64,000 bases of DNA from Hyphomicrobiales bacterium (lineage in GTDB: Bacteria > Pseudomonadota > Alphaproteobacteria > Rhizobiales > Rhizobiaceae). Under the pieces are notes generated by a model. The model saw only the letters and a list, made by a program, of their open reading frames with translations, was not told the DNA's origin and searched no databases. The stretch spans positions 62,001 to 126,000 of the forward strand of contig UBWZ01000016.1 of assembly GCA_900469345.1 (NCBI GenBank), given 5' to 3'. Shown here piece after piece: positions 33,042-61,272 of the stretch. Both the position numbers and the translations under genes were made by a program. Within the stretch, counting starts at the first letter, position 1, and each line of letters opens with the position of its first letter.

Positions 33042-34076
33042 TTATGCGGCTTGCTTGCGCGGCTTGATCAGCCCGCGGTTGACGAGCAACTCGGCGATCT
33101 GAATAGCGTTCAGTGCAGCGCCCTTGCGCAGGTTGTCCGACACGACCCAGATGTTGAGGCCGTTCTCGACGGTGGCGTCCTCGCGGATGCGGGAGATGAA
33201 GGTCGCGTCCTCGCCAGCGCACTCGTAAGGCGTTATGTAGCCGCCGTTTTCGTGCTTGTCGATCACGAGGCAGCCCGGCGCTTCACGCAGGATGTCACGC
33301 GCCTGGTCAGCGGTGATCTCGTTCTCGAACTCGATATTGACCGATTCCGAATGGCCGATGAAGACCGGAACGCGCACAGCCGTGCAAGTCACCTTGATCT
33401 TGGGATCGAGCATCTTCTTGGTTTCTGCCAGAACCTTCCACTCTTCCTTGGTGTAGCCGTCTTCCATGAAGACGTCGATGTGCGGGATGACGTTGAAGGC
33501 GATGCGCTTGGTGAACTTCTTCGATTCCATAGGATCCGCAACGAAGACGGCGCGGGTCTGCGTGAAGAGTTCGTCCATGCCTTCCTTGCCGGCGCCGGAA
33601 ACGGACTGGTAGGTCGAGACCACGACGCGCTTGATCTTGGCGAAATCGTGCAGCGGCTTCAGGGCCACGACCAACTGCGCCGTCGAGCAGTTCGGATTGG
33701 CAATGATGTTGCGCTTCGAGAACTGGGTGATCGCGTCCGGATTAACCTCCGGCACGATCAACGGCACGTCGGAATCGTAGCGCCAAGCCGACGAGTTATC
33801 GATGACGACACAGCCCTGGGCGCCGATCTTGGGCGACCACTTCTTCGAGACGTCCCCACCGGCCGACATGAGGCAAATATCGGTGTCGGAAAAATCGTAG
33901 TTCTCCAGGTTGGAGACCTTGAGGGTCCGGTCGCCAAACGAGACTTCGGTGCCTTGCGAGCGGGATGATGCCAGTGCGACGACTTCGTCCGCTGGAAAGC
34001 CGCGTTCTGCGAGGATGTTCAGCATTTCTCTGCCGACATTGCCGGTGGCACCGGCGATTGCGATCTTGAAACCCAT
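33042..34076 (-). CDS. asd: Aspartate-semialdehyde dehydrogenase
   Basis: Makes aspartate 4-semialdehyde from aspartyl phosphate with NADPH, the branch point to Lys/diaminopimelate, Thr, Met and Ile. 344 residues from the ATG at 34076 (AGAGAG seven nt upstream). N-terminal NADP fold AIAGATGNVGREML; catalytic Cys in NPNCSTAQLV; STYQSVSGAGKEGMDEL; and PHIDVFMEDGYTKEEWK followed by the His-containing substrate region. It lies downstream of a promoter, a Thr/Lys-rich short open frame and a GC-rich hairpin, suggesting attenuation. Confidence 0.97.
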   Translation of the reverse strand: MGFKIAIAGATGNVGREMLNILAERGFPADEVVALASSRSQGTEVSFGDRTLKVSNLENYDFSDTDICLMSAGGDVSKKWSPKIGAQGCVVIDNSSAWRYDSDVPLIVPEVNPDAITQFSKRNIIANPNCSTAQLVVALKPLHDFAKIKRVVVSTYQSVSGAGKEGMDELFTQTRAVFVADPMESKKFTKRIAFNVIPHIDVFMEDGYTKEEWKVLAETKKMLDPKIKVTCTAVRVPVFIGHSESVNIEFENEITADQARDILREAPGCLVIDKHENGGYITPYECAGEDATFISRIREDATVENGLNIWVVSDNLRKGAALNAIQIAELLVNRGLIKPRKQAA

Positions 34077-34149
34077 TTCAGTGCTCTCTTTCTGTCTCTC
34101 CTCGATCTGGTGAGGGGGAAGGCCGCACCAAAGTCGCGGCATTCCTTAT

Positions 34150-34166
34150 CCCCGGCCAGGCCGGGG
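34150..34166 (-). repeat. GC-rich hairpin in the asd leader
   Basis: CCCCGGCCAGGCCGGGG on the plus strand is a perfect inverted repeat (8-bp arms around one base, realistically six pairs with a five-base loop). On the asd transcript it falls between the short leader frame and the asd start. It lacks a following T run. Part of it (CCAGGCC, 34156-34162) could instead pair with GGCCGTGG at 34213-34220 inside the Thr/Lys codons. Confidence 0.65.
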
Positions 34167-34188
34167 AGAGAGCGGCGGGCCAGAGACG

Positions 34189-34308
34189 TCAGACGGTTTT
34201 CGTCGTCGTTTTGGCCGTGGTTTTGGAAAGGGCGGAATCACAAGCCCATTGCGCGGCGCAAAGGTCCGGCAAGTCAAAGACAGCGATAGACGGTTCGCAG
34301 GCTCGCAT
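34189..34308 (-). CDS. Putative Thr/Lys-rich leader peptide of asd
   Basis: A 39-codon frame from ATG 34308 to TGA at 34189-34191. The last 11 residues are KTTAKTTTKTV, so six of the final 11 codons are Thr and three are Lys. Thr and Lys are end products of the pathway that starts at asd, whose ATG is 112 nt downstream. The ATG lies about 17 nt after the predicted transcription start of the promoter at 34332-34360, which suits a leader frame. The ribosome site is weak (GGA 9 nt away). The resemblance is to thrL-type attenuators; the function is inferred from architecture, not homology. Confidence 0.6.
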   Translation of the reverse strand: MRACEPSIAVFDLPDLCAAQWACDSALSKTTAKTTTKTV

Positions 34309-34331
34309 GGGTGTGTTTCCGTTCGTCCGTG

Positions 34332-34360
34332 TGTTTAAAAGATTTTCGGCACGAGTCAAG
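34332..34360 (-). promoter_or_regulatory. Predicted sigma70-type promoter of the asd leader
   Basis: On the minus strand CTTGAC (34360-34355) is separated by exactly 17 nt from TAAACA (34337-34332). CTTGAC with 17-nt spacing is the alphaproteobacterial housekeeping pattern; the -10 is moderate. Start of transcription would be near 34325, giving an asd leader of about 250 nt. A GCCCGC-N6-GCGGGC inverted repeat (34364-34381) lies just upstream and could be an operator. Confidence 0.6.
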
Positions 34361-34551: not shown

Positions 34552-36435
34552 ATGGCAAATGTCGCAACGGCGGCGGATACCAAAGCCGGCCCGATGACGC
34601 GGGAGGAGAAGAAGGTCATCTTCGCTTCCTCTCTCGGCACGGTTTTCGAATGGTATGACTTCTATCTCTACGGCTCGCTGGCAACCTATATCGGGGCGAC
34701 CTTTTTCACCCAGTATCCGGAAACGACGCGCAATATCTTTACGCTTCTTGCCTTTGCTGCCGGCTTCCTGGTGCGCCCGTTCGGCGCGCTTGTGTTCGGT
34801 CGCCTCGGCGACCTGGTCGGCCGCAAATACACCTTCCTCGTCACCATCCTGATCATGGGCACGTCCACCTTCCTCGTCGGCATCCTTCCCGGGGCCGCGT
34901 CCATCGGCATCGCCGCACCGATCATCCTGATCGTGCTTCGTCTTCTCCAGGGTCTGGCGCTGGGCGGCGAATATGGCGGGGCCGCCACCTACGTGGCGGA
35001 ACACGCGCCGCATGGCCGCAGAGGTTATTTCACCTCCTGGATCCAGACGACCGCGACGCTCGGTCTCTTTCTGTCGCTGGTCGTCATCATCGCCGTCCAG
35101 ACGATGATGGGCAATACGGCGTTTGCGGCTTGGGGCTGGCGCATTCCGTTCCTCGTCTCGGTCGTACTCCTCGGCGTTTCGGTCTGGATCCGGCTGAAGA
35201 TGAACGAATCGCCGGCGTTCCAGAAGATGAAGTCGGAAGGCAAAGGTTCCAAGGCGCCGCTGACGGAAGCCTTCGGCCAGTGGCGCAATGCCAGGATCGC
35301 AATCATCGCGCTTCTGGGCGCGACCATGGGCCAGGCCGTCGTCTGGTACGGGGGCCAGTTCTACGCGCTGTTCTTCCTGCAGAATATTCTCAAGGTCGAT
35401 CTCCAGTCCGCGAACATCATGGTTGCGATCGCACTTGCGCTTGCAGCACCATTCTTCGTGGTGTTCGGCTCGCTTTCAGACCGGATCGGCCGCAAGCCGA
35501 TCATCATGGCAGGCCTGCTGATTGCGGCCGTTACCTACATGCCGCTTTTCAAGACGCTGACATCGATGGCCAATCCAGCCCTCGCCGAAGCTCAGGCGTC
35601 GATCCGTGCAACCGTGACTGCCGATCCGGCAGACTGCAAGTTCCAGTTCAACCCGACGGGCACGTCGAAGTTCACCAGTTCCTGCGATATCGCGACTGCA
35701 TTCCTGACCCGTAACTCGGTCCCCTATGACGTTGTGCCGGGGCCTGCGGGCCAGCCTGCCGTCGTCAAGGTCGGCGACAAGACCATCGCCAGCTATGATG
35801 CGATCGCCGCCGGGGCGGAAGCCAAGGCGAAGCAATCGGGCTTCGAGAAGAACGTCAACGTCGCCCTTCACGATGCCGGCTATCCGCTGAAGCGCGCTGC
35901 CGCCAAGGTGCCGGATTCCAAGCTCGATGCCTTCGCCGCGGCAAACCCGGAACTGAAGCTCGATGCCGCTGCCATTCGTGGCGGTGAAAAGGCTACTCTG
36001 TCATCGGCTGACCTGGTTTCGCAGAAACTGCTGACACCCGACGAGGCCAAGGGGGTGACCGACATGCCGGTGTACACGATCGGCAACGGCGGCGCGTTCA
36101 GCATGACGGCAGATCCGGCCAGGGTGAACTGGATCGGAACGATCGCGGTCCTGTTCGTGCTCGTTCTCTACGTCACCATGGTCTACGGCCCGATCGCGGC
36201 GCTGCTGGTGGAACTCTTCCCGACCCGCATCCGCTATACGGGCATGTCGTTGCCCTATCACATCGGTAACGGCTGGTTCGGCGGGCTGTTGCCAGCGACA
36301 GCCTTCGCGATGAGCGCGGCTGCGGGCAACATCTATTATGGGCTTTGGTACCCGATCGTGTTTGCAGCCATCACCCTGGTAATCGGCATGCTCTTCCTGC
36401 CGGAGACCAAGGACCGTGACATCCACGCGGAATAG
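34552..36435 (+). CDS. MHS-family MFS permease with large extracytoplasmic insertion
   Basis: Metabolite:H+ symporter branch of the MFS (ProP, KgtP and ShiA relatives). The start SSLGTVFEWYDFYLYGSLAT and the loop FGRLGDLVGRKYTF are typical. ATG at 34552 follows GGGAGG. At 627 residues it exceeds the usual ~440 because of a soluble segment at about residues 341-523, between the helix ending MPLFKTLTS and the one starting VNWIGTIAVLF. The segment contains two Cys (DCKFQFNPTG and SSCDIA) that could form a disulfide outside the membrane. Substrate unknown; an organic acid is likely from the subfamily and the element shared with acs. A strong terminator follows. Confidence 0.88.
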   Translation: MANVATAADTKAGPMTREEKKVIFASSLGTVFEWYDFYLYGSLATYIGATFFTQYPETTRNIFTLLAFAAGFLVRPFGALVFGRLGDLVGRKYTFLVTILIMGTSTFLVGILPGAASIGIAAPIILIVLRLLQGLALGGEYGGAATYVAEHAPHGRRGYFTSWIQTTATLGLFLSLVVIIAVQTMMGNTAFAAWGWRIPFLVSVVLLGVSVWIRLKMNESPAFQKMKSEGKGSKAPLTEAFGQWRNARIAIIALLGATMGQAVVWYGGQFYALFFLQNILKVDLQSANIMVAIALALAAPFFVVFGSLSDRIGRKPIIMAGLLIAAVTYMPLFKTLTSMANPALAEAQASIRATVTADPADCKFQFNPTGTSKFTSSCDIATAFLTRNSVPYDVVPGPAGQPAVVKVGDKTIASYDAIAAGAEAKAKQSGFEKNVNVALHDAGYPLKRAAAKVPDSKLDAFAAANPELKLDAAAIRGGEKATLSSADLVSQKLLTPDEAKGVTDMPVYTIGNGGAFSMTADPARVNWIGTIAVLFVLVLYVTMVYGPIAALLVELFPTRIRYTGMSLPYHIGNGWFGGLLPATAFAMSAAAGNIYYGLWYPIVFAAITLVIGMLFLPETKDRDIHAE

Positions 36436-61182: not shown

Positions 61183-61272
61183 GGAGAGGTGGCTGAGTGG
61201 TCGAAAGCACCGCACTCGAAATGCGGCATACGGGCAACCGTATCGTGGGTTCGAATCCCACCCTCTCCGCCA
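61183..61272 (+). tRNA. tRNA-Ser (anticodon CGA)
   Basis: 90-nt class II tRNA with a long variable arm. Acceptor GGAGAGG pairs with CCTCTCC; discriminator G; CCA is encoded. Anticodon stem CCGCA/TGCGG closes the loop CTCGAAA, giving anticodon CGA for UCG codons. T arm GGGTTCGAATCCC is canonical. Confidence 0.97.

Follow-up and report, generated by a model that had tools for sequence, protein, structure and literature searches.

The asd gene encodes aspartate-semialdehyde dehydrogenase, which catalyzes the step shared by the routes to lysine (Lys), diaminopimelate of the cell wall, threonine (Thr), methionine (Met) and isoleucine (Ile). We analyzed the region upstream of asd in a 64,000-nucleotide (nt) stretch of a Rhizobiaceae genome (Hyphomicrobiales bacterium, assembly GCA_900469345.1, contig UBWZ01000016.1, positions 62,001 to 126,000; hereafter the window), where a sequence-only reading had proposed a Thr/Lys-sensing attenuator. 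The short frame on which that proposal was built is present on the minus strand and ends in KTTAKTTTKTV; its stop codon lies 112 nt before the asd start, and behind it follow strands that can pair in alternative ways (Table 1). A cluster of end-product codons directly upstream of a pathway gene is a trait of leader-peptide attenuators. Comparison with related genomes supports the proposal, Thr and Lys being the two clearly enriched amino acids, and makes it likely, as far as sequence comparison can indicate, that asd is preceded by a ribosome-mediated attenuation leader.

Table 1. The asd gene of the window and the features found upstream of it
Feature	Coordinates	Strand	Basis
Putative promoter, CTTGAC-N17-TAAACA	34332..34360	-	Sequence
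Upstream short open reading frame (leader peptide frame), 39 codons plus TGA	34189..34308	-	Sequence; counterparts in 110/110 loci
Thr/Lys codon cluster KTTAKTTTKTV, end of the 39-codon frame	34192..34224	-	Codon statistics
Small hairpin GACG-ACGAAAAC-CGUC within the last codons of the frame	34192..34207	-	RNAalifold consensus
Strand A, GUCUCUGGCC, +2 to +11 after the stop codon	34178..34187	-	Pairs with C
Strand B, GCUCUCUCC	34165..34173	-	Pairs with E; 3' end and neighbour pair with C
Strand C, GGCCGGGGAU	34148..34157	-	Alternative partners: A, or B (GC hairpin 34150-34166)
Hairpin D (AAGGAA..CCGC..GCGG..UUCC), sequence variable	34117..34147	-	Halves pair
Strand E, GGAGAGA, 5' of the asd ribosome site	34095..34101	-	Pairs with B
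Probable asd Shine-Dalgarno (SD) sequence, AGAAAGAGAG	34084..34093	-	Role inferred from position and the known anti-SD
asd, aspartate-semialdehyde dehydrogenase, 344 amino acids	33042..34076	-	Pfam PF01118 and PF02774

The presence of a Thr/Lys-codon frame before asd is confirmed and is far from chance. We compared two partly overlapping sets of nearer relatives: a genus set, in which the asd search matched 57/57 genomes and the best 30 became loci, and a species-genome collection, from which 80 loci were taken out of at least 589 confirmed. Together these give 110 nearer loci with 101 distinct stop-to-asd stretches. In all 110, asd is preceded by a frame that has four or more Thr among its last 14 residues and whose stop codon lies 77-165 nt ahead of asd. 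By eye, the N-terminal part of the peptide is variable and the last dozen residues are conserved. Among 80 distinct leaders (L001-L088), Thr occupies codons -2, -5 and -6 in 73, 80 and 79 cases, respectively, and codon -9 is Lys in 46, Thr in 19, Met in 9 and alanine (Ala) in 6; the Ala at -9, like Lys at -4, stems from leaders with one extra codon. Third bases swap (ACG/ACC/ACA/ACT, AAA/AAG) while Thr and Lys are retained, and replacements at these positions are mostly T, K, M and I, residues of the aspartate family, with A, N, H, F and R as exceptions. Across 92 representatives, the frequency of Thr is 75% at -2, 59% at -4, 76% at -5 and 62% at -6, and only 3-16% at codons -16 to -30. The sequence-only reading had named loss of the frame or its terminal Thr/Lys codons in close relatives as the outcome that would speak against it; what we found is strong conservation, with third-base swaps.

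Some variants of the tail stand out. Nine leaders (L011, L015, L021, L023, L026, L029, L030, L041 and L045) end in KIIV or KIV, with Ile in place of the last Thr; Ile is another product of the aspartate-family pathway. The tail RITAKTTIKTV, in which Ile occurs twice and Thr just four times, is common to L036, L054, L057, L064, L069, L074 and L079, whose records are mostly titled Agrobacterium. The pattern AARACNACNACNAARACN has a single match in the window's own genome, the asd leader; as a specific search tool we rejected it, as it gave 44 hits over 40 genomes against 37 for a backwards control.

The signature extends well beyond close relatives. An order-wide asd search matched 148/150 genomes, and from it we assembled a sample of 91 loci (29 most similar, 60 hand-picked to cover families and two from a class search), reduced to 88 leaders after dropping L169 (duplicate), L224 (no recognised start) and L114 (upstream region too short). 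At least four Thr in the last 12 codons were found in 50/88 of these leaders (57%), compared with 0.6% of dinucleotide shuffles; the best Thr count over the same codons averages 3.93, against 0.89 in the shuffles, and 44 leaders pass p 0.02. Comparison of the 20 amino acids by the z of their mean gives 32.3 for Thr, 13.5 for Lys and, as the next highest value, 3.2 for Ala, with Met at 2.2 and Ile at 1.2. The composition of the tail is kept across families, as in PKTATTTPKTATTG, KTTKTTA, KTTTKTV and TTKKTATTV.

A like signature occurs before a diverged copy of the gene. In 4/57 genus genomes (loci L291, L292, L293 and L294 in genomes G045, G026, G011 and G035) there is an additional asd gene whose product shares 43-45% identity with Asd along most of its length, and each of these four paralogues is preceded by a 25-codon Thr/Lys-rich frame whose stop codon lies 93-95 nt before the probable start of the paralogue. 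The frame reads MFANLTTKTTTKTTADAG... in two loci and differs by one replacement in the other two; its cluster reads TTKTTTKTT, with TTKTTMKTT and TTKTATKTT in two, and lies mid-frame, unlike the terminal cluster of the main leader. Around AAGGAG in the start region, GUCUCUC can pair with GAGAGAC, a possible SD hairpin. Finding such a frame ahead of a diverged asd ties the Thr/Lys codons more firmly to the Asd enzyme.

Behind the codon cluster lie alternative helices: strand C has two rival partners, A and B, strand B likewise has C and E, and A:C and B:E are compatible as a pseudoknot. To evaluate them, we compared pairing between own partners with pairing between swapped partners, in two runs over 45 dissimilar leaders. 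Own partners pair better for A:C (z -5.6 and -6.2, p 0.0002), for B:C (z -3.7 and -3.5, p 0.001), for B:E (z -6.0 and -5.7, p 0.0002) and for the two halves of hairpin D (z -4.9), while the control pairings of the first run show no gain over swapped partners. Two of these helices had been picked out from the window alone, B:C as a GC hairpin and B:E as a complementarity between 34165-34171 and 34095-34101; a further suggestion, that a strand of the GC hairpin pairs alternatively inside the Thr/Lys codons, found no support in the pairing test. RNAalifold picks A:C unaided, with 97% of helix cells paired and 5/9 pairs changed on both sides, and none of 500 shuffles is as good as A:C together with the small codon hairpin, which has one double-changed pair. 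When the A:C partners are slid by 1-3 columns, pairing drops from 97% to 22-60%, a control that favours the structure drawn from its own alignment.

The arrangement of these strands is regular. The bases of C used by A:C and by B:C overlap in 65/77 leaders, strand A starts +1 to +7 after the stop codon in 69/77, and the window's B:E helix has only two bases (34165-34166) in common with its B:C hairpin. Three leaders with only 77-81 nt between stop codon and asd (L092, L098 and L106) are almost devoid of hairpin D and keep strands A, B, C and E along with the A:C and B:E helices, so D is not essential. A search for B:E without position anchors, judged against shuffles of E, gave only 22/92 leaders at p <=0.05; it is weak because CU-rich and GA-rich strands match generically, and the own-versus-swapped comparison was used instead. 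In an anchored B:E table (79/92) the best own helix was chosen, which biases the rates upward, and we do not rely on it for significance. A pairing of the frame's end with A around the stop codon (CACCG-UCUGA-CGGUG in L117) was dropped as not significant over the leader set.

How might such an arrangement report on amino acid supply? When charged Thr- or Lys-tRNA is scarce, a ribosome would stall in the codon cluster and leave A free, so that A:C could form and B would remain available to E; under ample supply, it would run on to the stop codon and cover A, and C would pair with B. A ribosome's footprint extends about 12 nt past its A site, so that a ribosome on the stop codon would cover strand A and one stalled at Thr -4 or upstream would not, a geometry of A, C and B that resembles that of the classical attenuators. 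From the logic of the pathway, stalling would raise asd expression, and the tiny frame is probably a sensor that raises it on Thr or Lys shortage. As to the output, the leader might act on translation initiation, B:E being adjacent to the ribosome site of asd, or on transcription, through Rho-dependent termination within the untranslated C-rich stretch before asd. Once attenuation is granted, we would roughly give translation initiation an even chance, Rho-dependent termination a lesser but substantial one, and any other output a small remainder.

Several results weigh against a leader of this kind. By count, 38/88 leaders of the order sample have no Thr-rich frame, and 44 fail the significance cut; the class search added 27 leaders from outside the order, its most similar matches, and just three of them have such a frame (L151, L152 and L155). 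The Thr-rich asd leader is thus widespread in the order, absent or undetectable in many families, and scarce among the sampled leaders from elsewhere. No comparable frame stands before hom, lysC or thrC in eight genus genomes, the best tail score there being 4.0 against 8.1 for the window leader on the same scale, with starts set by motif; if the leader senses Thr, it would therefore act only at the shared asd step. Taken leader by leader and judged against shuffles of the 5' strand, A:C attains p 0.05 in just 26/77 and B:C in equally many, and RNAalifold did not return B:E from 42 loci hand-picked among the 110 nearer ones; MAFFT misplaces E between families.

Folding simulations add to these points. 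We folded 15 Rhizobiaceae and 77 other leaders at equilibrium, with nested pairs and the 5' part masked codon by codon as if by a ribosome, and in these 92 leaders a ribosome on the Thr codons does not open the asd ribosome site. The opening cost is 8.2 kcal/mol unmasked, with means spanning 6.5-8.5 kcal/mol, and falls slightly toward a ribosome on the stop codon, from 7.8 to 6.6 kcal/mol in the Rhizobiaceae and from 8.4 to 7.7 kcal/mol in the others; the lower cost with the ribosome on the stop codon is, if anything, in the wrong direction. Nor does any covarying helix cover the asd SD in the own-versus-swapped comparison of the 45 dissimilar leaders, a test that is powerless for invariant strands. 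We also considered a register shift, in which B:C would leave GCUCUCU blocking AGAGAGC and A:C would let B pair with E and free the SD, and abandoned it: when A:C was held in 76 of the 79 distinct Rhizobiaceae leaders, the SD was more open than with a stop-codon ribosome in just 35/76. The poor fit may mean that the output is Rho-dependent, that it involves pseudoknots beyond nested folding, or that the masks are wrong.

A terminator hairpin offers no simple way out. Between 33000 and 35600 of the window, a scan that covered the leader called nothing resembling a terminator on the minus strand, and the gap between stop codon and asd has no U-run, just as the sequence-only reading had observed in noting the lack of a T run; the window probably has no plain intrinsic terminator for asd. 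Hairpin D, which has no strand in common with A:C or B:C, ends in GCGGGUUUUUAUGG, resembling an intrinsic terminator, in L103, L107 and L108; unlike in these three, it is followed in the window by a C-rich stretch. Among RNA families, Thr_leader (Rfam RF00506) does not match the window leader at the gathering score or up to E 10, neither a lysine riboswitch nor a T-box was found, and a tRNA at 61183-61269 is the sole Rfam match above the gathering score anywhere in the 64-kb window. A weak match to RF02602 (E 1.4) was followed in nine loci and dropped.

One more specific account is translational attenuation, to which we give a real chance, well short of an even one. The ribosome on the short frame would decide whether access to the asd ribosome site is barred by the CU-rich, anti-SD-like strand B, which in Rhizobiaceae would act directly (GCUCUCU:AGAGAGC) and in other families through the neighbouring strand E. 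The conservation of B:E near the ribosome site and the absence of a called terminator in the window leader speak for it, as does the minimum-energy fold of the free RNA, which pairs GCUCUCU of B with AGAGAGC in 16 of 18 Rhizobiaceae leaders viewed. The pairing of B with the SD is without covariation, both strands being nearly invariant in Rhizobiaceae so that the test is powerless there, and in nested equilibrium folding a ribosome placed at the Thr codons does not open the asd ribosome site. Outside that family, a CUC/GAG anchor was found in 64/77 leaders, and the GAG of E ends a median of 20 nt (7-40) before the asd ATG, so that B:E misses the SD in most of the 64; this distance corresponds to the edge of the 30S footprint.

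Rho-dependent attenuation, in which the C-rich strands A and B after the stop codon would be a Rho loading site hidden by the stalled ribosome or by the fold, seems to us less probable again, roughly a one-in-four proposition. Comparable Rho-dependent attenuation operates in the tna operon. Positions +1 to +30 after the stop codon are 50% C, 20% G and 6% A in the 45 dissimilar leaders, and in the window the 112 nt of RNA after the stop are untranslated and free of a U-run, which counts in its favour; the C-richness is, however, equally explained by pairing with the G-rich strands C and E, and B is paired in both predicted states.

It is improbable that the frame encodes a small protein that has an independent function, its position before asd being secondary. 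Its Sinorhizobium meliloti counterpart, taken up below, is translated and detectable as a tagged copy (PMC10117765), and leader peptides can act in trans, as peTrpL does (PMC7298713); yet what families have in common is just the composition of the final dozen residues, while the N-terminal part varies by eye, and the position before asd is retained. Least credible of all is that the codons are conserved just for RNA structure, or are an accident of ACG repeats, with no control of translation, a notion to which the small hairpin in the last codons and its one double-changed pair lend some colour.

The promoter proposed by the sequence-only reading is present as sequence, and a loose promoter-like pattern (TTGAC, 17-19 nt, a -10-like hexamer; no control set) occurs in 60/110 loci, in 55 of which the next in-frame start codon follows 22-26 nt past it; a generic sigma-70 scan of the window did not call CTTGAC-N17-TAAACA. 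The neighbouring gene, a 627-residue MFS transporter (34552-36435, plus strand; Pfam), is divergent, so that the leader occupies the intergenic space between two divergent genes, with asd as the first long gene behind it. In the transporter, Pfam Sugar_tr matches two stretches, best at residues 24-333, and the second half has, by eye, a long insert that is not membrane-like.

Taken further, these observations sketch a more specific picture, which we put forward tentatively, at about one chance in three: a terminator-free attenuator spread over the order Hyphomicrobiales that would read several end products of a branched pathway (Thr and Lys, with Met and Ile replacements) at the branch enzyme they share, with the stop-codon ribosome switching between the B:C hairpin and an A:C plus B:E pseudoknot beside the asd ribosome site, and with its codon signature also set before a diverged asd paralogue. 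If the attenuation reading is right, one element accounts for asd control in rhizobia, agrobacteria and many relatives, the single-genus view of the S. meliloti member is corrected to a spread over the order, and a test is offered of how a leader can operate without an intrinsic terminator.

We know of no cis-regulator of asd in alphaproteobacteria beyond a remark on SEP5 of S. meliloti, made in a 2023 Microlife paper (first author Hadjeras). That paper places SEP5, with its six Thr and three Lys codons, in the 5' untranslated region of a gene for 'aspartate dehydrogenase', considers it a possible leader peptide 'conserved only in Sinorhizobium', and supports its translation by Ribo-seq and by a Western blot of a tagged copy; it also names rnTrpL a tryptophan attenuator small RNA (PMC10117765). 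These Thr and Lys counts equal those of the KTTAKTTTKTV tail of the window and of the Sinorhizobium loci L071, L081 and L082, and from this match, rather than from coordinates, SEP5 would be the asd leader. The sequence-only reading had known of no asd leader of this kind; in that respect it was partly anticipated by SEP5, while the passages of PMC10117765 on SEP5 give no structure or mechanism, spread, codon statistics or A, B, C and E helices. No other paper was recognised as describing an asd leader in a literature coverage that leaves out preprints and most subscription papers, and asd is not mentioned in the available portions of a 2005 motif survey of alphaproteobacteria (PMC1273637) or of PMC4833913 and PMC3766115.

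It is instructive to compare the asd leader with established systems. Like thrL of enterobacteria (RF00506), it is a Thr-codon-rich frame before an aspartate-family gene with alternative helices behind; thrL controls thrABC through an intrinsic terminator and reads Thr and Ile, whereas the asd leader has Thr and Lys codons, stands before asd, and shows neither a U-run in the window nor an Rfam match. The rhizobial trpL/trpE(G) attenuator (rnTrpL/peTrpL) belongs to the same bacterial group, and there too a stop-codon ribosome covers a pairing strand, but trpL ends at a terminator and releases a small RNA, and no such terminator was found at the asd leader of the window. In tnaC-tnaAB of Escherichia coli, a ribosome at the frame end could likewise hide a C-rich stretch after the stop; its stall depends on free tryptophan and the nascent peptide in a catabolic operon, whereas here the codon cluster specifies end products of a biosynthetic gene. 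The erm-type attenuators, also without a terminator, shift helices near the downstream ribosome site on stalling, but the stall is set by antibiotic and nascent chain and the SD itself lies in a helix, and at asd an SD helix is without covariation support. Because the window has no intrinsic terminator, we do not file the asd leader as a thrL-type transcription attenuator; judged by its sequence features, it is best placed with neither the thrL nor the erm type, as a leader that would work like them.
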